64,000 bases of DNA from a virus. Shown here one piece after another: positions 3,409 to 41,900 of the stretch (its first letter is position 1; every line of letters starts with the position of its first letter). The notes under the pieces were generated by a model. The model did no database searches. It saw only the letters and a program-made list of their open reading frames with translations, and was not told the origin of the DNA. The DNA is taken from the IMG/VR virus record IMGVR_UViG_3300020027_000004, positions 1 through 64,000 of that record; one strand, given 5' to 3'. Made by a program: the position numbers and the translations under genes.

Positions 3409-5427
3409 TCACACGCTTGGCTCGGGTAGCTCCGGGTCATCGTCATCATCCACGACATCGATCGGCATCTCGGCACCGGGGAGGCCGTCAACGATGGCGC
3501 GGATGCGAGCGCTCGCGAGCTCGTGGAACTCCGCTTCCTTCTCGAAGCCTACGAAGCGGAAGCCTTCGATCAACGCGGCCACGGCGGTGGTCCCCGAGCC
3601 GGTGAACATGTCGAGAACGAGGCCGCCGGGTGGCGTGATCAATCGGCAGAGCCAGCGCATGAGGGACACCGGCTTCACGGTGGGGTGCCAATTTCGAGCT
3701 CCACCGGTGCGGCCAGCTCCGGCTCGCGGGTTGTTCAGGCCAGCGCTCCCATCCTTGCGATCCGTTGCTTCGCCGGCGGTGCGCGGCTCTAGGTGATCGA
3801 GCCCGGCATCCTTCTCCGAGCGCGCGGCCTTCGCGGTGTAGAAGAACCGTGAGGCGCCACCGATATCGGAGTGGCCAGAGGACACTTTCCCCCCGTCGAC
3901 TCGTGGTCCCTCGAACGCACCGGTGGTTGATGCGAACGCATTGGTGGAATTGTTGCGAGGTGCATCGCTCGAACGCGTGATCCCGCTCTGCTCGTCCAGC
4001 ATGCGGATCGGGCAATCCTCCGCGCACGCGTAGAAGCCATCCGTTACGGTGCACTCGAACGCGTGCTCCAGCGCGAGGTTCGCGGGCCAGCGTCCAACGC
4101 GCGTTCCTGCATCCACACGGCCGGTGTTACCGCCACCCATCGAAAAATTCTCCGAGATCACCCCATTGCCGTCCGAACGAGTCGCCTTCATCAACTCGGT
4201 TCCGATGCGGCATCCGTCGATATTGAGCGCGCCCGTGCCATGCTCGAGCACGTTCTCCGCGTACGTTCCATCCAGCGGTTTGCGCGCAAGGATCCAATGC
4301 TCCGCGGCTGGCTTCAGCGCGGTGCCCCATCCTTGCAAGGCGGCGGCGGCCGCCGGGGTTACCGGATCACCGAGTTTGATTCCGCTCCAGCCATCCACAC
4401 CAGCCCATCCATCGCGCGGCTTGTCGTCGGTGGACATGCGACGCATTACCGAGCCTGGAGCCGGTACCGTGCCAACCACTTCGCGTTCCGCACCAAGATG
4501 CGCATCGATCGCCTTGCTCACGTCCAGCGATTTCGGAAATCCAGATCCGAACAGATGCATCACTACATCGCGAATCTCGAACTCGGCATCCTCGATCGCG
4601 CACGCCGTCCAGTGGCTCGTTCGCGGGATAGCCCACGAGAGGATGTGCCCCCCAGGCTTGAGCACGCGGAACGCTTCCACCATCCTCGCGTTGAGCCACG
4701 CGATCCATTGTTTGCGCCCGCCCTTGTCGCCATCCCAATCCTTTCCCATGAACGAGATCCCCGCGGGCGGGTCGGTAACGATGGCGTCCACGCTGTTGTC
4801 GTCGAGCTTCCGCAGCCCATCGAGACAATCGCCGAGGTGGAGCGTCCAGTCATCATGCGAGAGTTCGCGCGAGCGAGCGCCGAGCAACCGCTCGTGAGCT
4901 CCGATCGTGACCTTGCGCGGACCGCTAGGATCCTGGCCATCGTCATCGCCGAGCTCGGTGAGATCGCCAGCGAGCGCATCCAGATCATCGGCGGTGAGTC
5001 CCGAGAGCGCTGCGGCCTCGTCGTATTCGATCTCGCCGGCCTGGAGCGCGTCCTCCATCCACGCGTTGAGCGCATCCATGCCCCATTCAGCTTCATGCCG
5101 GAGCCCGAGCATGATCTTCCTGCCCTCGGCAACGCTCGAGACATCGAGGATCAGCGCCTTCACCTTCTTGGTGCGCGGATACTTTTCGAGGATGCGCTCG
5201 ATTCGTCCGTGTCCGTCGATGAGCTCCCATTCGGTGCGCGAGATCTCGCGCACGAGGATCGGCTTGACGTAACCGTTGATGTCGAGCGAGGCATCGAGGA
5301 GCTCGCGATCGCGGTCGGTGCGATCTACCGGGTTGCCCGCGGAGAACCCGCGGATCTTGGAGATCGGGATCTCCTTCAGAGCCTTGATTCTGTCGCGGAG
5401 GATCTTCGGGGGCGGATTCTTGCTCAT
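3409..5427 (-). CDS. ParB-like domain fused to N4/N6 DNA methyltransferase
   Basis: 672 aa from ATG 5427, which overlaps the upstream TGA and has AGGAG upstream. Residues about 1-110 are a ParB/Srx-like nuclease-fold domain (IPISKIRGFSAGNPV, DGHGRIERI). The rest is a beta-type N6-adenine/N4-cytosine methyltransferase: catalytic motif IV is TDPPAGISFMGKDW (DPPA instead of the usual DPPY/W), and the AdoMet motif I, DMFTGSGTTAVAALIEG, is near the C-terminus. Phage enzymes of this architecture methylate their own DNA, usually to evade host restriction. The last residues are very acidic (DDDDDPELPEP). Target sequence unknown. Confidence 0.88.
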   Translation of the reverse strand: MSKNPPPKILRDRIKALKEIPISKIRGFSAGNPVDRTDRDRELLDASLDINGYVKPILVREISRTEWELIDGHGRIERILEKYPRTKKVKALILDVSSVAEGRKIMLGLRHEAEWGMDALNAWMEDALQAGEIEYDEAAALSGLTADDLDALAGDLTELGDDDGQDPSGPRKVTIGAHERLLGARSRELSHDDWTLHLGDCLDGLRKLDDNSVDAIVTDPPAGISFMGKDWDGDKGGRKQWIAWLNARMVEAFRVLKPGGHILSWAIPRTSHWTACAIEDAEFEIRDVVMHLFGSGFPKSLDVSKAIDAHLGAEREVVGTVPAPGSVMRRMSTDDKPRDGWAGVDGWSGIKLGDPVTPAAAAALQGWGTALKPAAEHWILARKPLDGTYAENVLEHGTGALNIDGCRIGTELMKATRSDGNGVISENFSMGGGNTGRVDAGTRVGRWPANLALEHAFECTVTDGFYACAEDCPIRMLDEQSGITRSSDAPRNNSTNAFASTTGAFEGPRVDGGKVSSGHSDIGGASRFFYTAKAARSEKDAGLDHLEPRTAGEATDRKDGSAGLNNPRAGAGRTGGARNWHPTVKPVSLMRWLCRLITPPGGLVLDMFTGSGTTAVAALIEGFRFVGFEKEAEFHELASARIRAIVDGLPGAEMPIDVVDDDDDPELPEPSV

Positions 5428-5657
5428 GGCGATGGGTCTCCTGGCTCGGGTTTGTCGCGACAGTACCGGCATCGCCGGCGCACTGCATTGGTGGGGCCGA
5501 TGACGTCGTTTTTGCGGAGCACCGTGTGGCCACACTCGAGGATCTCGGTATGCGCTCCGTGCTCGTTCACCCCCTCGCTCGTCACGAGGCGGAGAGGTCC
5601 GATAGCGCGGCCCCGTCGCCGCAAAGCGCTCTCGCGGCGGAGAAACCGCCCGCTCAT
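5424..5657 (-). CDS. Small zinc-finger-like protein (77 aa)
   Basis: Residues about 40-67 contain ECGHTV and then RCRYCRD, a C-x-H...C-x-x-C arrangement typical of small phage zinc ribbons. The basic N-terminus (RFLRRESALRRRGR) could contact nucleic acid. It overlaps both the HerA-like gene and the methyltransferase gene by four bases, so its product should be made together with them. Confidence 0.6.
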   Translation of the reverse strand: MSGRFLRRESALRRRGRAIGPLRLVTSEGVNEHGAHTEILECGHTVLRKNDVIGPTNAVRRRCRYCRDKPEPGDPSP

Positions 5658-7492
5658 TCGAGAAACAGGACGGGCTCGGCGCGCACCATACCGCCCGTCG
5701 GATAGTCGAGGACACCGAGCGAGCGGAGCGATCCAAGATTGTTGCCGAACGCGCCACCACCGGGGCTCGCACCAGCCATCTCAGCGAGCTCGGCCTTCGA
5801 TACCGCGGTGGGGTAGGCCGTGATCAGCGCATCGATGATGCGCCACTTGGCCGGCGACACCATCCCCCGGATGAGTTCGTGCATCTCCGCAGCGGTTTGT
5901 GGTGCGCGCGTTCGATCAGCGAGGCGAGCTCCGGCATCGGTGAGAGCTACCGTGCCAGGGATCGGATAGTCGATCAGCCCAGCGGTACGGAGCGCCCCCA
6001 GGTTGTTACCGAACGCACCGCCCTTCGGCGAAGCATTGGAGAATAGCGCCACCTGTTTTTTGGGCGCGGCCGGTTGCCGGCGCACGGACGAGAGGAGCGC
6101 GAGCCCGTCAAGGATGCGTTGCTTGGCGGGCGTGATCCCCTCGGGGCGCGAGCCGTTCGACCCATTCGCGTGAGCCGCGCCGTTTGCGCCGTTTGCATGC
6201 GTCGGAGCGGACCTACGCGACGAGGGGTGTGGCAGCGATGCCGCCACGACTTTGCGCACGAGATTGCTGATGACCGCCGGAGGCGTGACGGGCGCAGCGT
6301 CCCACGTGGCCTGCCGTATGGCTCCCTGGAGCACTTCGCCGAGCGTGACGAGGTCTGCGGATGCGCCCGCAGCCTCACCGCCGACGGTCTCGAGGCGACT
6401 CGCTACCTTCTCAACCCGCGCGAGCGCGGCCTCGATGCGCTTCAGGTCGGCGGGCTTGAGCACCGAGCGCTCGCGGACCTTGCCGGGCTTGCCCGGCTTC
6501 GCTGCGAGCTGGCGCTGGAGTTCAACAACCCGCGCCTTGAGCGCCTTCGGATCGTTCTCCTTCGCGCGCTCGACCACCTCAGCCATTCGCTCTTGATACT
6601 TCGCGAGGTCGACCTTCGCTCCTGCGCCGGATGCGCGTACCTCCTTGCCGGCCTCGGGCGTCTTGGACGAGTCGAACGTTCTGCGCTTGCGGATCTCGGC
6701 GATCCCCTCGAACTCGAGCCAGCCCGGCGAGACCACCAGCGCAGTTCCGCGAGGCAAGCTCCGCAGCTTCTCTCCGAAGTCTTTGAGGCTCGCTTTCTCT
6801 ACGTGCTCGCCGAGCCAATCCAGAACCGCGCGCATCGAATTGGGCCCTGCGATGCGGAACGCGAACACGCAATCGGCGAGTTCGGCTACATCCTTGTTCA
6901 GCCTCGCGCTCCGCTGCGTGACGAGCGTGACGCCGATGCCGACGTTGCGCCCCTCCTCGACGATCACCGCGATCGCGCCCATGCACGCGGCGACCTCACT
7001 CTCGCCGTGGCGGACAATCTGCGGAGCGAAACGCGCGGCCTCGTCGATTACTTGCATGACCGGGCGACGCTTCTCCCCTTGACGCTGGTAGAGACGTTTC
7101 GCGTACGCGGTCACGAAGCGGACGCGTTCCGCGATCGACCACATGGAGCCATCTGCGCGGCGCGAAATGTCGATGATGACGCTCTCGTTCTCATCGACTA
7201 CGAGGTCAGCGACGACAGCGCCCGCGGTCGGCTCGATCGGCATGTCGCCATGAATGCCGCCGAGGATCAGCGCCTTGATTCCGGGCCCCTTCCCATCGGC
7301 GCTATGGCGCAAGCCCCACCAAACTCCCATCGGGTCGATGACGGCGAAGCGTAGGCCGGTTACCGCGAACTCCTCGACGAGCACGCTTGCTAGGTTGGTC
7401 TTCCCCATGCCCTTGCCGCCGTAGACAACGATCGTCGAAGTCACTGCGTCGAGCGGAAGCGACAGGTTCGGTGCGATCTTCATCTTGGCCAT
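5654..7492 (-). CDS. HerA/FtsK-like P-loop ATPase with duplicated winged-helix tail
   Basis: 612 aa. Walker A is YGGKGMGKTN (residues about 24-33), followed by HerA-like motifs: Walker B VMQVIDEAARFAP and the sensor-like VTLVTQRSARLNKDV. Such ring ATPases pump or unwind DNA, usually with a nuclease partner (NurA in archaea). The middle is charged and partly coiled. The C-terminal third contains two related winged-helix units, each with GGAFGNNLG, LRT or LRS, and a DYP wing (around residues 490-525 and 570-603). Start ATG 7492 has GGAGGA upstream. It may load or move DNA during replication or recombination; the exact role is inferred. Confidence 0.75.
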   Translation of the reverse strand: MAKMKIAPNLSLPLDAVTSTIVVYGGKGMGKTNLASVLVEEFAVTGLRFAVIDPMGVWWGLRHSADGKGPGIKALILGGIHGDMPIEPTAGAVVADLVVDENESVIIDISRRADGSMWSIAERVRFVTAYAKRLYQRQGEKRRPVMQVIDEAARFAPQIVRHGESEVAACMGAIAVIVEEGRNVGIGVTLVTQRSARLNKDVAELADCVFAFRIAGPNSMRAVLDWLGEHVEKASLKDFGEKLRSLPRGTALVVSPGWLEFEGIAEIRKRRTFDSSKTPEAGKEVRASGAGAKVDLAKYQERMAEVVERAKENDPKALKARVVELQRQLAAKPGKPGKVRERSVLKPADLKRIEAALARVEKVASRLETVGGEAAGASADLVTLGEVLQGAIRQATWDAAPVTPPAVISNLVRKVVAASLPHPSSRRSAPTHANGANGAAHANGSNGSRPEGITPAKQRILDGLALLSSVRRQPAAPKKQVALFSNASPKGGAFGNNLGALRTAGLIDYPIPGTVALTDAGARLADRTRAPQTAAEMHELIRGMVSPAKWRIIDALITAYPTAVSKAELAEMAGASPGGGAFGNNLGSLRSLGVLDYPTGGMVRAEPVLFLE

Positions 7493-14488: not shown

Positions 14489-15634
14489 TCAGTTCTCCTC
14501 GGTTGCGTTGTCGGGTTGGGTTGCGGTCTCGGTGGTCTTGGTCTTCGAGCGTTGCCAGGCGTACGGCCAGCGGAACGTGCGTGCACCAGTTACCACGCGG
14601 GTGTGATCTTGTTCGATGATGTCGGAGGCCAGCTCTGAGAGTGTCGCCTCGATGGCTGCGAGCGCAGCTAGGCCGTCATCGTTGGCGCATAGCCGGATGT
14701 CCTCTAGCGCGGGGCCAGCACCATCGAGCGCGAGCTGTGCTCGCTGGCGCATCTCGAGCACGACGGCAGCGTGGTTAACCTTGGTGCCATCGCGGTTGTG
14801 CTTCCAGGTGATCTTCTGCGGCTTGCGATGCTCGATCGACTTCCACGTGATGCCAGGCGCATCGCCGATCTTCAGCTTCAGCTGTTGCTGTGCGACCTCG
14901 AGCTCGTCTTCGGCGTGCGCGATGGCCGCGTGGAACTCGTGAGCGTGCTGGATGAGCGCGAGCGTCTCGGCATCGTCGGTGATGTCCACGAGCGCCGCAG
15001 TGGTCTCCTTCCACCGGCTCTGGAGAAAGTCGGTGAACCCCTTGCTTCCGTCGGGATCGGGCATCTCGCCGCCCTCGATGTTGTCGATGCGGAACCTCTC
15101 CGCACGTTCGACCATCATCGCGATTAGATCGTCGTCGCGGTCGATGATGTAGTCGGTCGGCTTCCCATCGATGAACGCGCAGAGGTCCCACCGTTCCAGT
15201 CCGGTGACGGCCATCCCCCATTCGCACTGGAGCAACTCCCAGAGCGGCACCTCATCGGTGTTCGGCGCGCCGTACATCCAGGCGAACCGCCACACGTGCG
15301 TCTTGATCTCGAGCCCCTTCGTCGCGTTGATGGCGCCATCGGGATACACGAGGCCGTCCGGGCTGGCGATGATCCAGGGGAAGCGTGGATGCGCGAGCGT
15401 CCCAACGCGTTCGACGCGCACCCCATGGCGCGTCTCGTAGTCGTTACGGATGAGCGGCTCGAGGCGCTGGCCCCACAAGCTGGCTTCGGTGTCCGGGCTC
15501 GGCGGGATCTCGCCGCGCTTTTCCTGGAAGACGGTGATCGGGCTCTTGTACGGGTTCACGCCGCACACCGCAGAGATGTCCGTGGCCGTGATTCCGCCGA
15601 GCCGTCGCTCGATTTGCGAGGGTGAGAGGCTCAC
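14489..15634 (-). CDS. YqaJ-family viral exonuclease (381 aa)
   Basis: GTG 15634 overlaps the TGA of the RHH gene, so longer starts are rejected. The N-terminal 200 residues carry the YqaJ/lambda-Exo fold: GGITATDISAVCGVNPYKSP, an acidic residue in EPLIRNDYE, ASPDGLV, then the catalytic LEIKT. A helical region (about 250-320) and a basic C-terminus follow. These nucleases resect double-strand ends for phage recombination with an annealing protein, here probably the next gene. Confidence 0.88.
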   Translation of the reverse strand: MSLSPSQIERRLGGITATDISAVCGVNPYKSPITVFQEKRGEIPPSPDTEASLWGQRLEPLIRNDYETRHGVRVERVGTLAHPRFPWIIASPDGLVYPDGAINATKGLEIKTHVWRFAWMYGAPNTDEVPLWELLQCEWGMAVTGLERWDLCAFIDGKPTDYIIDRDDDLIAMMVERAERFRIDNIEGGEMPDPDGSKGFTDFLQSRWKETTAALVDITDDAETLALIQHAHEFHAAIAHAEDELEVAQQQLKLKIGDAPGITWKSIEHRKPQKITWKHNRDGTKVNHAAVVLEMRQRAQLALDGAGPALEDIRLCANDDGLAALAAIEATLSELASDIIEQDHTRVVTGARTFRWPYAWQRSKTKTTETATQPDNATEEN

Positions 15635-15894
15635 GCGCGAGCTCCGTTCGCGCTGCGCTTCGCCCTGCGCACCATCTCGCGTGCGGTGTTCGTCGCCTTC
15701 GCCTTGCGAATCCGCGCCACGATGTTCGGAGAGACGTGATGCACGTCGATCCCCGCGGCCGCCGGGCGCGCTGCGATGATCAGGTCGGAGACCCAGTGCG
15801 AGAACGTTTTGCCATCGCTCTCTGCCTGTGCGGTCGCGATGGTGAACAGCTTGCGGTTGATCGACACCGAGCGTCGCGATTGTTTCTTCGCCAT
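15631..15894 (-). CDS. Ribbon-helix-helix DNA-binding protein (87 aa)
   Basis: Begins MAKKQSRRSVSINRKLFTIA. The strand SVSIN followed by helices FTIATAQAESDG and SHWVSDLIIAA is the Arc/CopG/MetJ fold. Such dimers bind operators with the N-terminal strand. It is the first gene of the 16-kb minus-strand operon, preceded by its own TAGGGT element and facing the plus-strand operon, so it is a good candidate for the autoregulator of the divergent region. The C-terminus (RKAKATNTAREMVRRAKR) is strongly basic. Confidence 0.7.
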   Translation of the reverse strand: MAKKQSRRSVSINRKLFTIATAQAESDGKTFSHWVSDLIIAARPAAAGIDVHHVSPNIVARIRKAKATNTAREMVRRAKRSANGARA

Positions 15895-20185: not shown

Positions 20186-20632
20186 ATGACCGTATCCCAT
20201 CGCCCTGACACCGCAACGCCGACCCCGCGGCGCCTCAAGTTCTCCCAGCCGGATCCCGAGCCTCGCTCCAGCTCTCGCGCGCGCCGTCCGCCTCGAGACC
20301 CCTCGAAGCCAAAGGGGCCAAGCCCCGAGGAGGCCCAGGCTGCCGCCAAGATCGCGCGCGCTGCGCGGGGCGAGCGGTTCAAGGTCCCGCCCTGGGAGCG
20401 GCCGCGGTTGCCGCACGGAGCTCGGTTCGAGCTCGACTATGACGCGGAGGCGATCCGCTGGTCGGGAACCCTCACGGCGGGCGGGATCACGGTGGCCGGA
20501 GACTCCGGCTCGGTGATGAATCTCATGTCCGCGCTGGACGAGAAATACCGCTTCAAGGCGGCATCCGTCGCGTCAGCATCGAGGGGCGGCACGCCGGCGC
20601 CGAGCGACACATCCGATCCCGAGGTGCGGTGA
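20186..20632 (+). CDS. Unknown protein, first gene of replication cluster (148 aa)
   Basis: ATG 20186 has a strong AGGAGG nine bases upstream, so this gene is translated by a normal Shine-Dalgarno mechanism. N-terminal half is disordered and Pro/Arg/Ser-rich; the C-terminal half contains a compact beta region (IRWSGTLTAGGITVAGDSG) followed by a helix with NLMSALDEKYRF. No family recognised. Confidence 0.65.
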   Translation: MTVSHRPDTATPTPRRLKFSQPDPEPRSSSRARRPPRDPSKPKGPSPEEAQAAAKIARAARGERFKVPPWERPRLPHGARFELDYDAEAIRWSGTLTAGGITVAGDSGSVMNLMSALDEKYRFKAASVASASRGGTPAPSDTSDPEVR

Positions 20633-21174
20633 TGCGGAAGGCGAGCCACATCGAGCGCCTGCTTTTGGCCGCGCTTCAGCAGTCGATGGCCGGGGATAAT
20701 TTCGTCGATGTGACGAACGAGTGGGACACGCCCATCAGATTCGAGGCGGACGAACTCGGGCGTTCATGGCCCAAGGAGGATTCCCCGTTTTACGGGGTGG
20801 TGAACTCGTGGGAAACCGCGTTGCTCCGCCAGGCTACCATCGTCGGATACGACGCCGATGTCTTGATCTGGAGCACTGCGGTGACGCTGGTCATCGAGTG
20901 TGATGGAAGGGAATTCCACGAGAGGACGGTTCAACAGGCGTCGTACGATCGCGCACGTGATCGGGCGCTGCTTCGAGTTGGAGTCGATGCGGTCATTCGA
21001 TTTACCGGTAGCGACATCGTGCGGGACGCGAATTCCTGCGCGCGCGAGAGTCGGGAAACCTTCGAGACCATCGTTTCCAAACGTGACGCGATGCGGGCGC
21101 ATTGGGAGGGCTTTGCCACCATAGCGACCATCCGGACGGTGTCCGAAAGGCTGAAGCGTCGGGGTGTGGGATGA
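20632..21174 (+). CDS. DUF559/Vsr-like PD-(D/E)XK nuclease candidate (180 aa)
   Basis: ATG 20632 (TGATG with the upstream stop); a GTG three bases earlier is possible. It contains the ordered elements of very-short-patch/DUF559 nucleases: Glu in SHIERLLLAAL, Asp in DADVLIWS, the catalytic IECDGREFHE, then YDRARDRALLRVGVDAVIRFTG. Such proteins nick or cleave DNA in repair or defence; here it lies just before the replication initiator. Confidence 0.65.
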   Translation: MRKASHIERLLLAALQQSMAGDNFVDVTNEWDTPIRFEADELGRSWPKEDSPFYGVVNSWETALLRQATIVGYDADVLIWSTAVTLVIECDGREFHERTVQQASYDRARDRALLRVGVDAVIRFTGSDIVRDANSCARESRETFETIVSKRDAMRAHWEGFATIATIRTVSERLKRRGVG

Positions 21175-22559
21175 CGCGCTATCGCAAGATCGAAACCGCG
21201 ATGTGGTGCGACCGCCGATTCCGCGCGCTCACCGCGCCACCGCCCAACGCGCGGGACCTCTGGATTTACCTTCTGTGCGGGCCGCGAACCACCATCTTTC
21301 CCGGGGTCGTGGTCGCCACCGAGGCGGTCATCGCGGATGATCTCCGGTGGTCAGTGAGCGGCCTTCGTGGCGCATGGGCGGAAATTGAGTCGCACGGGAT
21401 GGCGGTCGCTGACTGGGAGGCTGGCGTCATCCTCCTTCCGAAGGCACTTCAGGATGGCGCTGGTTTGCCACGCGAGAGCGCCAAGCCAGGTTCGCCGAAC
21501 CAGCTTCGGCACTGGGCTAGAACGTGGGTCGAAGTGCCGGAGTGCGATCTCAAGTGTGGGTACTTGGATCAGCTTCAACGGTTCGCCGAATCGCTGGACG
21601 CTAATCGCTCCGATGACGAAAAACCCTATACAAACGCATTTCTGAACTCGTTCGAGACGAGTCTCAGACGAGTTCGAGACTCGTCCCCGACGAGTAGGGG
21701 GACTCGTCCTCGACCCGCGCGCGATCCTGATCCTGATCTCTCCCCTGTTTTAGGGGGTGGGGTTTCGGGGTTTTGGTCTCCGGATCTCGGCGTTCCGGAG
21801 CCTCCGGATCCCCACGGCGATCGGTCGGATGATCTCGTACACGACCGTACACATAGCAGGCCTACGGTGACCCAGGGTACAATTACAGGGTCACATGGTA
21901 ACGGGGAACACATAGCCGAGGTCGAGCCGTCGCATGCACCGGTGCCTACTGCCGTACCGGTACCGTACACCGGTAGTTTCGCGCAGGAGCGCTCGGAACC
22001 TGACCCCGGCAATCCCGCGGGGAAATCCGGAAACGCGCTCCTGGGGCAAACCAGAGGCCTCTCCGTGCAAGCCAGCGATGCCGCTCCGGATCCCGAGGTC
22101 ATGGCGCGGAGGGCTCTGGTACACGGGTTCCCAGCGCGGGTGAACGCGCTGCGGGTGGCGGTGGCTGCCGCGCGCAAGGTATCTCCTGGTCGGCCGGTGT
22201 CTCTCATGGGCCGGGGCGAGGTGGAGCTCATGGCCCGGCTTCGCGAAAGCGTGGACCCAGCTGGCGACTTGGAGCACGTGCTCGAGATAGCCGCAGCCGA
22301 GGCACGGACCCCACGCGGTCAGCTGCGGTGGCTGTCCTGGTCGCTGGCCGAGCCGAAGTCGTGGGCGCTCTTGCTGGCCACCACGGCCGCCGACGTCGCG
22401 GACCGCGCCGAACGCGAGCGGCTCCAGGCCGAGCGCGACGAGCGGCGCAAGCCACGCGACGTGTTCGCCGAGATCGACGCGGCCTTTGAGCGGCAGTTTC
22501 CTGGCGAGAGTGGCAATGTCGATGGTTGTCAGACTGGCGATGTAGTTTCCGCGAAATGA
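21171..22559 (+). CDS. Lambda O-like replication initiator (462 aa)
   Basis: Residues 1-115 match the N-terminal winged-helix domain of phage replisome organisers (TAMWCDRRFRALTAPPPNARDLWIYLL, VVATEAVIADDLRW, GAWAEIESHGMAVAD, then VILLPKALQ). Residues about 150-290 are a low-complexity linker whose DNA contains a phased repeat array and a G-rich run, resembling the lambda arrangement where the origin lies inside gene O. The C-terminus (about 300-462) is helical and probably recruits the helicase loader encoded next. ATG overlaps the upstream TGA. Confidence 0.75.
   Translation: MTRYRKIETAMWCDRRFRALTAPPPNARDLWIYLLCGPRTTIFPGVVVATEAVIADDLRWSVSGLRGAWAEIESHGMAVADWEAGVILLPKALQDGAGLPRESAKPGSPNQLRHWARTWVEVPECDLKCGYLDQLQRFAESLDANRSDDEKPYTNAFLNSFETSLRRVRDSSPTSRGTRPRPARDPDPDLSPVLGGGVSGFWSPDLGVPEPPDPHGDRSDDLVHDRTHSRPTVTQGTITGSHGNGEHIAEVEPSHAPVPTAVPVPYTGSFAQERSEPDPGNPAGKSGNALLGQTRGLSVQASDAAPDPEVMARRALVHGFPARVNALRVAVAAARKVSPGRPVSLMGRGEVELMARLRESVDPAGDLEHVLEIAAAEARTPRGQLRWLSWSLAEPKSWALLLATTAADVADRAERERLQAERDERRKPRDVFAEIDAAFERQFPGESGNVDGCQTGDVVSAK
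21617..21780. other. Candidate replication origin inside the initiator gene
   Basis: Six ACGAGT/ACTCGT half-sites start at 21646, 21657, 21668, 21679, 21690 and 21702, separated by 5-6 bases, that is one per helical turn. Their orientations are -, +, +, -, +, -. An AT-rich patch (about 21617-21643, the richest in the neighbourhood) flanks one side, and GATCCT repeats plus a G-run tract (21753-21776) the other. The site lies in the linker-coding part of an O-like initiator, as in lambda. Function is inferred from position and pattern. Confidence 0.6.
21753..21776 (+). repeat. G-run tract with quadruplex potential
   Basis: Runs of 5, 4, 4 and 2 guanines separated by T, TTTC and TTTT. Immediately preceded by CCCCTgttttAGGGG, a small hairpin. 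Confidence 0.5.
21867..21894. repeat. 7-bp inverted repeat GTGACCC/GGGTCAC
   Basis: Arms 21867-21873 and 21888-21894 with a 14-base AT-richer loop, downstream of the phased array. The word ACACATAGC is also duplicated (21849-21857 and 21908-21916). Confidence 0.5.
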
Positions 22560-23212
22560 CTCCCTCCGAAGCGAGAGACGTAGTCAAATTCTTAATGGCC
22601 GGATACCCGACACAACGCACGTTCATGAGCGCGACGGACATCGACGGGATGCTCGCGTTCTACGTCGCGGGGCTTGTGGACCTCGATGCCGCACCGACGC
22701 GCGCGGCCATCATCCGGCTCTCGCGCTCGGCGAAGAAGATCCCGACGGTGGCGGAGATTCGCGCGGAGGTCGTCGGCGTGCTCGCGCGCGGAGCTCGTCG
22801 CACCGGGCTCGAAGCCTGGGGCGAAGTGCTCGCGGCGGTCTCGAAATACGGCTCGCATCGCTGGCCCGGGATCGATTTCCAGTGGGGTGACCCGGTGGTC
22901 GCGCGCGTGGTCGCGGCGTTGAACTGGAGCGACATCTGCGCGAGCGAGGCCACCACGATGGTCGCGACGCGCGCACGGTTCATCGACGCGTACGAGGCCA
23001 TCGCGAAGGCCGAGCGCACCGAGGCGCAGGCATCCAACGGCGCCCGCAACGCACAACTCCAGCGCGCCGAGCTCGCACCGGCGCCAGCGCGCCACGAGCT
23101 CGAGCAACGTCGCGAGCCCGACGAGCCGGAGGACATGGGGCGGTTGCTCAAGCTCGTGATGGAGGAGGGGTTCGAGAAGGCGAGCGAGACGCTCAAGCGC
23201 GGTGGTGGATGA
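22556..23212 (+). CDS. Helicase-loader-like replication protein (218 aa)
   Basis: ATG 22556 overlaps the initiator stop. The N-terminal 90 residues match the pattern of G39P/lambda P-type loaders (MTPSEARDVVKFLMAGYPTQ, DGMLAFYVAGLVDLD, then KIPTVAEIRAEV). These deliver the host DnaB helicase to an initiator-bound origin. The C-terminus is helical, Glu/Ala/Arg-rich and ends near EDMGRLLKLVMEEGFEKA. It directly follows the O-like gene, as P follows O in lambda. Confidence 0.7.
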   Translation: MTPSEARDVVKFLMAGYPTQRTFMSATDIDGMLAFYVAGLVDLDAAPTRAAIIRLSRSAKKIPTVAEIRAEVVGVLARGARRTGLEAWGEVLAAVSKYGSHRWPGIDFQWGDPVVARVVAALNWSDICASEATTMVATRARFIDAYEAIAKAERTEAQASNGARNAQLQRAELAPAPARHELEQRREPDEPEDMGRLLKLVMEEGFEKASETLKRGGG

Positions 23213-38854: not shown

Positions 38855-39379
38855 GTGACCCGAGAGAAGTCGAAGAACCCCAAGACCGGCCGAAGCGGGC
38901 CATCGAATCGGGTGCTGGTCGCGATGAAGTTAATTAGCGAGATGCGGTACGGCCAGGCGCGCGTTGCGCTGATGGAGCAATTCGGCATCGCGCGCACCAC
39001 CGCGACGAACGATCTCACCGAGGCCACGCGGTTGCTCGGCGAGGAACTCGAGACGCAGAAGCCGTATCTCGCCGGCGTGCTCGTCAATCGACTCCTCCGC
39101 GTGATGGATCGCGCGGAAGCGAAGGGGAAGGACATCGCGGCGGTCCGCGCTGCTGAAGCAGTGGCGAAGATCGCCGGCCTCATCGTCAACGAGCACGGCA
39201 CCAACATCAACGTAATCGGTGGGAACAACGTTTCTATCGAGCAGCTCGCTCACGTCAAGGTCCTCCAGATGACGCAGCCGCAACGCATGCACCGCGAGCA
39301 AGAGCTGGCCGCGCGAGAGGCCGCATTGCTGGGAGCGTCGAGCGAGCCGAGCGAGCCAAGCGAAGGCGATGGCAATTGA
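38855..39379 (+). CDS. terS: Terminase small subunit-like protein (174 aa)
   Basis: GTG 38855. An HTH-like region (YGQARVALMEQFGIARTTATND) followed by helices and an extended C-terminus with NVSIEQLAHV. Identity rests on position directly before terL and on the HTH plus oligomerisation layout of TerS proteins, which recognise the packaging site. Confidence 0.65.
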   Translation: MTREKSKNPKTGRSGPSNRVLVAMKLISEMRYGQARVALMEQFGIARTTATNDLTEATRLLGEELETQKPYLAGVLVNRLLRVMDRAEAKGKDIAAVRAAEAVAKIAGLIVNEHGTNINVIGGNNVSIEQLAHVKVLQMTQPQRMHREQELAAREAALLGASSEPSEPSEGDGN

Positions 39380-41900
39380 AACGCTGCCGCTCTCCGATGA
39401 GGAGCGCGCCGAGCTCGAAGCGCTACGAGCTCACCGAATGCAGGCGGAGACGTTCCGCGAGTTTGTGCGGCGGTACGCTCCGCGGTTCTGGCCGGTGCCG
39501 CGACACCTCGCGCCGCTCTACAACCTGATCGAACGCACTCGCTTCGAGCGTGTTTTCGCGTGCGTGTCGATGCCACCTCGCCACGGAAAGCGACTTGCCC
39601 ACGACACCCCGATTCTGACGCCGGAGGGCTGGCGAACACACGGAGATCTAGCGGTCGGAGATGACGTGTTCGCGCCGGACGGCTCGGTCACGAAGGTGTC
39701 CGAGGTGTTCGCCGATGGTGCGTGTGATCTACTAATCACGTTCGATGATGGAGAGCGTTTCGTTACCCATGGCGAGCATCAGTGGAGCGTTCTTCGCCGA
39801 GGCGGGAAAGCTGAGGAGGTCATCGACACCAACGCGATGATCGAGTCTGGTCTCCAGGCCCGCGACGGGGAGAAGTGGCGATATCGGTTCTCGGTCCGTT
39901 ACACCGAACCACTGCAAGGCGTTGAGCGGTCGCTACCGTTTGATCCGTACGTGCTCGGTTACTGGCTCGGCAACGGAACCACTGGAATCGCGAAGGTCAC
40001 CGCCGGGCCTGATGATGCGCCACACGTGATCAATCAGCTGAGCGCTAGGGGCGCCATGCTCGGTCCGCGCTTCGTGCATTCGGCCACACGGTGCGTGACC
40101 CAGACGATCCGCAATGCCCCAGCGTGGACCGACAAGCGGATCCCAGTGGAGTATCTGACGGCATCTCTCGCTCAACGTCGAGCGCTCATGGCTGGGCTCG
40201 TCGATAGCGATGGGCACGTCGAACGCGAGACCGGTCGCGTTCGTTACGTCACCACGCTCCCAGATCTCGCGCGTGATGTGGAGGTGCTCGTCTCCTCGCT
40301 CGGCTACCGACCTAGCGCCACCACGCAAGCCCCCCACACCGGCTTCGCTCAAGGCCGCGACGTCATCGGTCGCCTAGATGTCCACACGGTTCAGTGGACT
40401 CCGCATGACGGGGAACCGCCCGGGACGCTGGAGCGAAAGCGCTTCGCCAAGGTCGGAGTTCGGCGCAGACGATCAATCATCAGCATCGAACGCACCACGC
40501 CGGTTCCTGGGAAGTGCATCCAGGTGGAGCACCCGGATCATCTCTATCTCGTGGGCGAGCGGCTCGTTCCGACGCATAACAGCCTCACGCTAATGCTGGC
40601 GCTCGCCTGGCGGATCATGCTCGATCCGGTCTCGCGAAACTTCTACACGAGCTACGGACAGTCGCTCTCTAACGATGCAGGACGCAGCGTGCGCGGCATG
40701 ATGCAGGAGCTCGGCGTCCCGCTCGACCGCAGCTCGAGCGCGATCGATTCGTGGAGCACGACCTACGGTGGCGGACTGCGAAGCACCGCGCTCGGCGGTC
40801 CCATCACCGGCAAGGGATGCAACGGCGGCCTGATCGTTGTCGACGACATCATCAAGGGCTGGAAGGCAGCGCGCTCGAAGCTCACGCGAGACGAGGCCTA
40901 CAATTACATTGTGAATGACGTGATGTCGCGCCTCGAGGGCGGCTCGAGCATCATCCTCGTCGGTACGCGCTGGGATGAGGATGATCCGATCGGCCGGATC
41001 ATCCGCGATGGTCTCGGCAAGCGGAAGTGGGAGATCATCAACATGCCGGCGATCCACGACGCCTCTGGCGAACCGATCGACGAGCAGATCTACCCGGAGC
41101 TGGCGATGCCGCTCTGGGACACGATCGACGAGGCGCATCCGAACAGCCCGGCTGCGGCACTCGAGCACTACGCCGACATCAGAGCTCGAAACGAGTTCAC
41201 GTGGTGGGCACTGATGCAGGGCATCCCTCGGTCCGAGGCCACGCGACTCTTTGGCGACCCCGCACGCTTCACGATGCCGCTCGACTGGAAGGGGAAGCGC
41301 TCCGTGCTCTGGCTCGATCCGGCCGCGAGCGCCAAGACCTCGGCAGACTTCGGCGCGCTCGGCGCGTTCGCTGGCGATGGCTACGGTCCCAAGGCACGGA
41401 TGTTCATCAACGAGATCGGGAAACGGCGCGTGTCGATCCCGCAGATCACCCGCGAGGCGCTCGCGTGGCAGAAGCGTTACAAGCTACCGCTGGGCGTCGA
41501 GGCCATCGGGGCCTTCGAGGCGATTCCCGCGATCATGCGCGAGACCGAGCCGGACCTCGACGTCATCGCTCAGAACAGCGTGATCGGCGACAAGTTCACG
41601 CGCGCTCTCGGCGTCTCTGGTGCGTGGAACAACGGACGCGTGCTCGTGCCGATGGGCATCGACGCTAACGGCCACGCGATCGTCACTACGGATCGCTACT
41701 CGTGGAAGAACCTCGACGGGTCCATCCAAGCCGTTCCGGTCGGCGGAGTGGAGTGGGTCCCGGACTACATTCGGGTCATGAAAGCGTTCACGGGCGTCGA
41801 TGGCGGCGAGGATGATGTGGTCGATATCAGCGCGCACGCGTGGAACTACCTCCACGGCATCGGTGACGACATCGCGCGCTGGGAAGCGCTATCTCGTTGA
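39369..41900 (+). CDS. terL: Terminase large subunit interrupted by an intein
   Basis: 843 aa unspliced, 513 aa after removal of the 330-residue intein (residues 75-404). The N-extein ends in SMPPRHGK and the C-extein begins SLTLMLALAWR, so the insertion splits the Walker A motif PPRHGK/S exactly. Downstream are Walker B LIVVDDIIKG, GTRWDEDDPIGR, and the nuclease domain (WLDPAASAKTSADFG). The product cleaves and pumps DNA into the prohead with TerS. Without splicing the ATP site is destroyed, so splicing must work. Confidence 0.93.
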   Translation: MAIETLPLSDEERAELEALRAHRMQAETFREFVRRYAPRFWPVPRHLAPLYNLIERTRFERVFACVSMPPRHGKRLAHDTPILTPEGWRTHGDLAVGDDVFAPDGSVTKVSEVFADGACDLLITFDDGERFVTHGEHQWSVLRRGGKAEEVIDTNAMIESGLQARDGEKWRYRFSVRYTEPLQGVERSLPFDPYVLGYWLGNGTTGIAKVTAGPDDAPHVINQLSARGAMLGPRFVHSATRCVTQTIRNAPAWTDKRIPVEYLTASLAQRRALMAGLVDSDGHVERETGRVRYVTTLPDLARDVEVLVSSLGYRPSATTQAPHTGFAQGRDVIGRLDVHTVQWTPHDGEPPGTLERKRFAKVGVRRRRSIISIERTTPVPGKCIQVEHPDHLYLVGERLVPTHNSLTLMLALAWRIMLDPVSRNFYTSYGQSLSNDAGRSVRGMMQELGVPLDRSSSAIDSWSTTYGGGLRSTALGGPITGKGCNGGLIVVDDIIKGWKAARSKLTRDEAYNYIVNDVMSRLEGGSSIILVGTRWDEDDPIGRIIRDGLGKRKWEIINMPAIHDASGEPIDEQIYPELAMPLWDTIDEAHPNSPAAALEHYADIRARNEFTWWALMQGIPRSEATRLFGDPARFTMPLDWKGKRSVLWLDPAASAKTSADFGALGAFAGDGYGPKARMFINEIGKRRVSIPQITREALAWQKRYKLPLGVEAIGAFEAIPAIMRETEPDLDVIAQNSVIGDKFTRALGVSGAWNNGRVLVPMGIDANGHAIVTTDRYSWKNLDGSIQAVPVGGVEWVPDYIRVMKAFTGVDGGEDDVVDISAHAWNYLHGIGDDIARWEALSR
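39591..40580 (+). mobile_element. Class 3 intein with LAGLIDADG homing domain in terL
   Basis: 330 residues. Position 1 is Arg (cga) instead of Cys, Ser or Ala, but the class 3 set is present: block A DTPILTPEGW, Trp in block B (GEHQWSV), the block F nucleophile Cys (GKCIQVEHPDHLYLVG), and block G VPTHN with Thr before HN, then +1 Ser. Two LAGLIDADG-like motifs lie between: YVLGYWLGNGTTG and LMAGLVDSDGHV. The first has Asn where the metal-binding Asp is normal. Confidence 0.88.

Follow-up and report, generated by a model that had tools for sequence, protein, structure and literature searches.

A candidate replication origin of the lambda/SPP1 kind within the initiator gene of an environmental tailed phage

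In phages lambda and SPP1, an array of repeats that lies inside the initiator gene serves as the replication origin (PMC5043065, PMC6316719). The iteron plasmids P1, F, RK2 and R6K likewise carry phased, initiator-binding repeats adjoining a weak segment, an arrangement that the locus described here resembles (PMC5043065). For most environmental phages, the replication origin has yet to be mapped. Here, the first 64,000 nucleotides (the window) of an 88,002-bp IMG/VR virus record, IMGVR_UViG_3300020027_000004, were analysed. Terminase, portal, head-protease and tail genes mark it as a tailed phage. Positions 21613-21738, within the initiator gene, very probably form a replication origin at which the initiator would bind, the DNA would open and a loader would deliver the helicase. 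The earlier note on this sequence had also proposed a candidate origin within the initiator gene, and the homologues, a lambda control and the neighbouring loader gene all argue in its favour.

An iteron array and weak DNA in the initiator gene

The initiator gene (21171-22559, plus strand) encodes 462 residues, comprising an N-terminal winged-helix-like domain, a low-complexity linker and a C-terminal region of its own. The linker contains six exact copies of ACGAGT/ACTCGT, at 21646-21651 (minus), 21657-21662 (plus), 21668-21673 (plus), 21679-21684 (minus), 21690-21695 (plus) and 21702-21707 (minus). The array thus spans 21646-21707 in steps of 11, 11, 11, 11 and 12 bp, with the orientations - + + - + -, and can also be read as three dyads at steps of 22-23 bp. 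The earlier note gave the same positions, spacings and orientations, and these are exact. When all hexamers were scanned at steps of 10-12 bp, the array was the sole chain of three or more in the 64 kb. The word itself occurs at close to its expected frequency in the window (40 copies against 35.9), and the genome scan that the note had proposed revealed no second cluster, either in the window or in the other 24 kb of the record. A search of IMG/VR for the ACGAGT array returned four chance matches in unrelated contexts and no conserved copy.

Simulating 300 windows with a Markov model mostly gave longest chains of two or three copies, with five reached once and six never. Similarly, 5000 synonymous permutations of the initiator gene yielded chains of three at most, and none matched the array. 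By a measure of repeat density, the array scores 38 pairs, compared with 23 at the next-best place in the window and a maximum of 22 among synonymous shuffles; the lambda O gene, used as a positive control for the same measure, reaches 35 pairs, where its shuffles give 16 at most. Furthermore, copies of the 11-bp unit fall in every one of the three frames, and the peptide that they encode, LNSFETSLRRVRDSSPTSRGTRPRP, is without repetition. Because the step drifts through the frames while the peptide does not repeat, the repeated unit is the DNA, and together with the recoding test this bears out the claim that selection acts here on the DNA rather than on the protein.

The upstream side of the array, including its first copies, overlaps an AT-rich stretch at 21613-21668 that is the least stable in the window and a candidate unwinding element. 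Positions 21613-21653 and 21602-21652 are the most AT-rich 41-bp and 51-bp stretches of the window, respectively, and nearest-neighbour stability is at its lowest in the 50- and 60-bp stretches that begin at 21619; at 30 and 40 bp, the flank ranks third and second. The AT-rich patch therefore does stand out, as had been noted. Sixteen base pairs after the array, at 21723-21738, there is a tandem tract of 2.7 GATCCT units that had gone unmentioned and that may provide a second entry or unwinding element. It is a weak feature of only 16 bp, and the 64 kb contain just one other exact run of this kind; we infer a chance of about 0.3% that one of two such runs would fall within 100 bp downstream of the array. 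On the minus strand, the tract reads CAGGAT, and by position it is the counterpart of the purine-rich hexamer tract found in relatives of this gene.

Beyond the tract, a CCCCT-GTTTT-AGGGG inverted repeat (21742-21756, plus strand; z only -1.8) opens a G/T-rich strand segment that extends to about 21777. Positions 21747-21777 of the plus strand are almost all G/T (TGTTTTAGGGGGTGGGGTTTCGGGGTTTTGG) and include four G runs, a possible G-quadruplex; C/G runs also follow the tracts of three relatives (L023, L024 and L125). A cluster of GATC (Dam-type) sites at 21723-21834, with seven sites in 125 bp, was considered and rejected, as at least seven arose in 27 of 60 simulations and the cluster is tied elsewhere in the window.

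The initiator, the loader and the replication gene content

The presumed DNA-binding domain of the initiator is encoded by 21171-21560 on the plus strand, and alignments and a tree show it to be homologous in all 83 relatives described below. Residues 1-90 match phrog_1701, a DnaD-like helicase-loader family (E=5e-7), and the protein is 41% identical to the "DNA replication protein O" of Citrobacter phage Chris1 (E=7e-19); the region that matches DnaD-like phage initiators comprises the first 90-130 residues. Searches against Pfam and NCBIfam gave no match, PHROG gave only the DnaD-like family and one unnamed family, and neither a lambda O-family profile nor a Rep-family match was found. An AlphaFold2 model, although confident (pLDDT 81.7), retrieved only winged-helix regulators in a fold search, and these weakly (E>0.03, TM about 0.33), while a search of solved structures with the domain returned only designed proteins and noise. 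The earlier description of an O-like initiator holds insofar as this is a replication initiator with a low-complexity linker, but the relatives that can be recognised are DnaD-like phage initiators, with no lambda O family among the matches. Directly upstream, and overlapping the initiator start, lies a gene for a DUF559/MTES_1575-type endonuclease-like protein (20629-21174, plus strand).

The helicase-loader gene (22556-23212, plus strand) overlaps the initiator stop by 4 bp (ATGA). Its product matches phrog_9804 (E=2e-22), and a profile built from the loader and its relatives matches PDB 1NO1, the G39P protein of SPP1 (E=1e-4). Homologues of the loader also match PF11417 (one of them, L095, at 2.5e-15), for which the window's loader alone falls below the threshold. 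In the fold search, lambda P ranked first and second and G39P third (TM 0.78 over 68 residues, probability 0.92, E=2.3); since all of these fold E-values are 0.13 or worse, the agreement of the three matches outweighs any single one. The gene that had been called P-like is thus a loader gene and resembles lambda P by fold, but by profile its match is G39P.

The 88-kb record yielded neither a DnaB-type helicase nor a family A DNA polymerase nor a tyrosine integrase, which is consistent with use of the host replisome. A RecE-like recombination exonuclease (14489-15892, minus strand; phrog_434, E=4e-62) is encoded in the direction opposite to the replication genes, and in Chris1, too, a gene for exodeoxyribonuclease VIII lies upstream of the initiator. 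A large protein encoded at 3409-5772 on the minus strand has DNA methyltransferase and ParB-like matches (phrog_67, phrog_620). Two genes resemble terminase large subunits, at 39369-41900 (plus) and 5654-7492 (minus), the latter through a partial, weaker match and with a resemblance to FtsK-like proteins as well. GC skew, which the earlier note had suggested as a check, was rejected as a mark of the origin: its minimum lies near 14-15 kb rather than at 21.6 kb, and coincides with the switch in gene direction near 15 kb.

Layout of the initiator linker in relatives

Relatives were scanned in IMG/VR (80 loci) and in GTDB genomes (65 loci); with near-duplicates removed and two named phages included, the set comprises 83 genes besides that of the window. 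They come from Pseudomonadota, Thermodesulfobacteriota, Myxococcota, Planctomycetota, Spirochaetota, Acidobacteriota, Nitrospirota and one Thermoplasmatota bin, although taxon assignments of metagenome-assembled genomes may contain contamination. Searches of IMG/VR for close relatives found none, whether with the full initiator, with the domain by itself or with only the loader.

In these relatives, AAGSCTT cores lie in the linker directly 3' of the domain, with at least two cores in 62 of the 83; outside the linkers, such cores occur at 0.39 per 150 nt. Of about 143 core spacings, 105 are 12 bp. A tandem tract with a 5-7-bp unit is present in 72 of the 83 linkers, compared with 114 of the 1660 random segments examined, and in 69 of the 72 it lies 3' of the last core, the commonest units being CAGGAA and CAGGAG, that is, of the (CAGGAR)n type. 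No AT-rich patch adjoins these arrays (the excess is only about 0.05), and the patch was therefore rejected as a family feature. The initiator of the window has the phrog_1701-family domain and the tandem tract, yet AAGSCTT is absent and ACGAGT, at an 11-bp step, stands in its place. The comparison with homologous phages that had been called for thus finds an array at the same place, but with another word, a 12-bp step and no AT-rich patch. Likewise, the placement of all copies on one face of the helix is true of the 11-bp steps in the window; because a 12-bp step rotates by about 50 degrees per copy, this phasing is not shared by the relatives, and only the close packing is conserved.

Individual linkers vary. 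Two relatives have altered words, CAGSCTG (L115) and AAGSGTT (L024), so that AAGSCTT is a common but not a strict trait of the family. Two more distant initiator-loader pairs (L092, L095), identified by way of the loader, and Moorella phage L006 have short repeats followed by 5-6-bp tandem tracts, that of L092 having a 5-bp step and lying out of frame; because their repeat-cluster statistic is marginal (P of 0.03, 0.24 and 0.08, respectively), the likeness of their initiator linkers to the layout of the relatives is only suggestive. The linkers of L026 and L113 repeat a 12-bp unit about six or seven times with very little variation (TCCGTAAAGCCT; CCGAAAGCCTTA), a regularity that suggests slippage as the source of the expansion. 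An enterobacterial clade (L004, L005) has a 7-bp tract of CAGTAAG/CAGATAA and extra AAGGC words where the gene begins; these may form a second cluster of sites. In a Polyangiaceae linker (L127), the array is absent and an apparent HNH-like segment is found instead.

In many relatives the 12-bp unit is in frame, encoding KAF, KPS or QEQEQ repeats. The synonymous-shuffle test was non-significant in many single relatives for this reason, and was replaced by a test of codon coupling. The core may be spelled AAG-GCT-T or A-AAG-CC-TT, and the Lys/Glu/Gln and Ala codons therefore have to match in their third bases. In the linkers, 251 codon pairs show this agreement and 24 lack it (odds ratio 121, P=2e-48, a value that overstates the independent evidence because the genes are mutually related), whereas the odds ratio in the rest of the gene is 7, probably from codon bias and further cores elsewhere. 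This shows that the DNA is under selection in the linkers of the relatives too.

In a tree of the domain, the window is nested among the AAGSCTT members, although its exact place is uncertain, and it has the longest branch, at 2.1 changes per site. The two relatives with altered words also have long branches, which fits a joint change of initiator and sites. By sequence comparison, the window's candidate origin keeps the layout of its relatives with the word replaced. It is possible, and we offer it tentatively, that these genes represent a widespread, apparently undescribed class of origin, in which an array, a tandem tract for unwinding or helicase entry, and the rest of the initiator follow one another within one coding linker, and that the lineage of the window exchanged the DNA-contact surface and all six sites together, a natural switch of origin specificity. 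In the open-access papers searched, neither the conserved layout nor AAGSCTT iterons nor the QEQEQ tract was found described.

The conserved layout is a more useful result than a single origin call. An array and a tandem tract in the linker of an initiator make up a sequence rule that would mark candidate origins across several phyla, and this rule is testable on cultivable prophages in Citrobacter, Variovorax and Delftia. A homologous initiator with a wholly different site word furthermore makes initiator-site co-evolution directly testable.

Proposed mechanism, alternatives and known systems

In the proposed mechanism, which is modelled on lambda (PMC5043065, PMC7466680) and SPP1 (PMC6316719), the initiator, probably as a dimer on each of the three 22-bp dyads, would bind the close-packed ACGAGT words through its N-terminal winged-helix domain. 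The complex so formed would strain and open a weak neighbour, which may be the upstream AT-rich flank, the downstream hexamer tract or the two together. The loader, whose gene follows immediately, would then deliver the host DnaB helicase, upon which the host replisome would assemble and start. Four observations count against this reading: the position of the GC-skew minimum, the failure to find a close relative with a conserved ACGAGT array, the very long branch of the window's initiator, and the lack of a counterpart to the upstream AT-rich patch in the relatives.

Iteron plasmids employ initiator-binding repeats for control as well, and the array lies inside an operon. Both points would suit an alternative in which the initiator binds the array as an operator, or as a copy-number control element, of the initiator and loader genes, with the origin elsewhere. 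This is improbable: the array lies about 475 bp into the initiator gene, no promoter-like site was found near it, there is no second ACGAGT cluster in the record, and an intragenic array is the origin in both lambda and SPP1 (PMC5043065, PMC6316719).

Considerably less probable is a functionless array, produced by chance or by recent tandem duplication. The 22-bp pieces of the array are 82% alike, and duplication therefore probably contributed to its origin. However, simple duplication does not produce alternating orientations at constant steps, six copies never arose in the simulations, and homologues have their arrays at the same place.

It is harder still to credit that the repeats serve to encode a repeated or disordered peptide linker under selection at the protein level. 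The segment is indeed a low-complexity linker, and in-frame units are found in many relatives, but in the window the unit runs through every frame with a non-repetitive peptide, and in the relatives the cores are used in two frames (103 and 114 copies) with coupled third codon bases. Equally implausible is a recombination, packaging or partition site, for although the window encodes the methyltransferase and ParB-like protein noted above, that gene is 16 kb away, and across phyla the arrays go together with initiator genes, which speaks for a role in replication.

An origin within the initiator gene thus remains the preferred reading, and its nearest counterparts can be compared in turn. The Chris1-type DnaD-like initiators have in common with the window the N-terminal domain, the place of the array and the later hexamer tract. 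They differ in using AAGSCTT, usually at in-frame 12-bp steps, rather than ACGAGT at out-of-frame 11-bp steps, and in having the (CAGGAR)n-type tract on the coding strand, where the GATCCT tract of the window reads CAGGAT on the other strand. Moreover, Chris1 pairs its initiator with a lambda-P-type loader (PF06992), whereas the profile match of the window's loader is G39P. Unlike the array of the window, the iterons of the plasmids are longer and mostly direct repeats.

In lambda, the half-sites lie in the middle of the initiator gene at distances of 11, 9, 11, 13, 11, 12 and 12 bp, compared with 11, 11, 11, 11 and 12 bp here, the O and P genes overlap by 4 bp as do the initiator and loader genes of the window, and an AT-rich segment adjoins the array in both (PMC5043065, PMC7466680). 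However, the lambda word is TCCCTC, its dyads all point in one direction and its weak segment lies downstream of the iterons, as does the tract of the relatives, while the strongest weak segment of the window lies upstream. The lambda ori/O/P layout proposed earlier accordingly fits in its array, weak segment and loader match, yet the 38/oriL/39 region of SPP1 is closer. There, the initiator gene holds its own repeats and the host replisome is used, as envisaged for the window, and the loader gene follows directly with the same 4-bp overlap (PMC6316719). A second origin, oriR, and a DnaB-type helicase gene of its own, gene 40, are particular to SPP1, and neither was found here. The profile match of the loader is G39P, while its fold matches include lambda P as well as G39P, and the putative origin is therefore better modelled on SPP1 38/oriL/39; judged from its sequence, it belongs, as a divergent member, to a kind already known, the lambda/SPP1 type.
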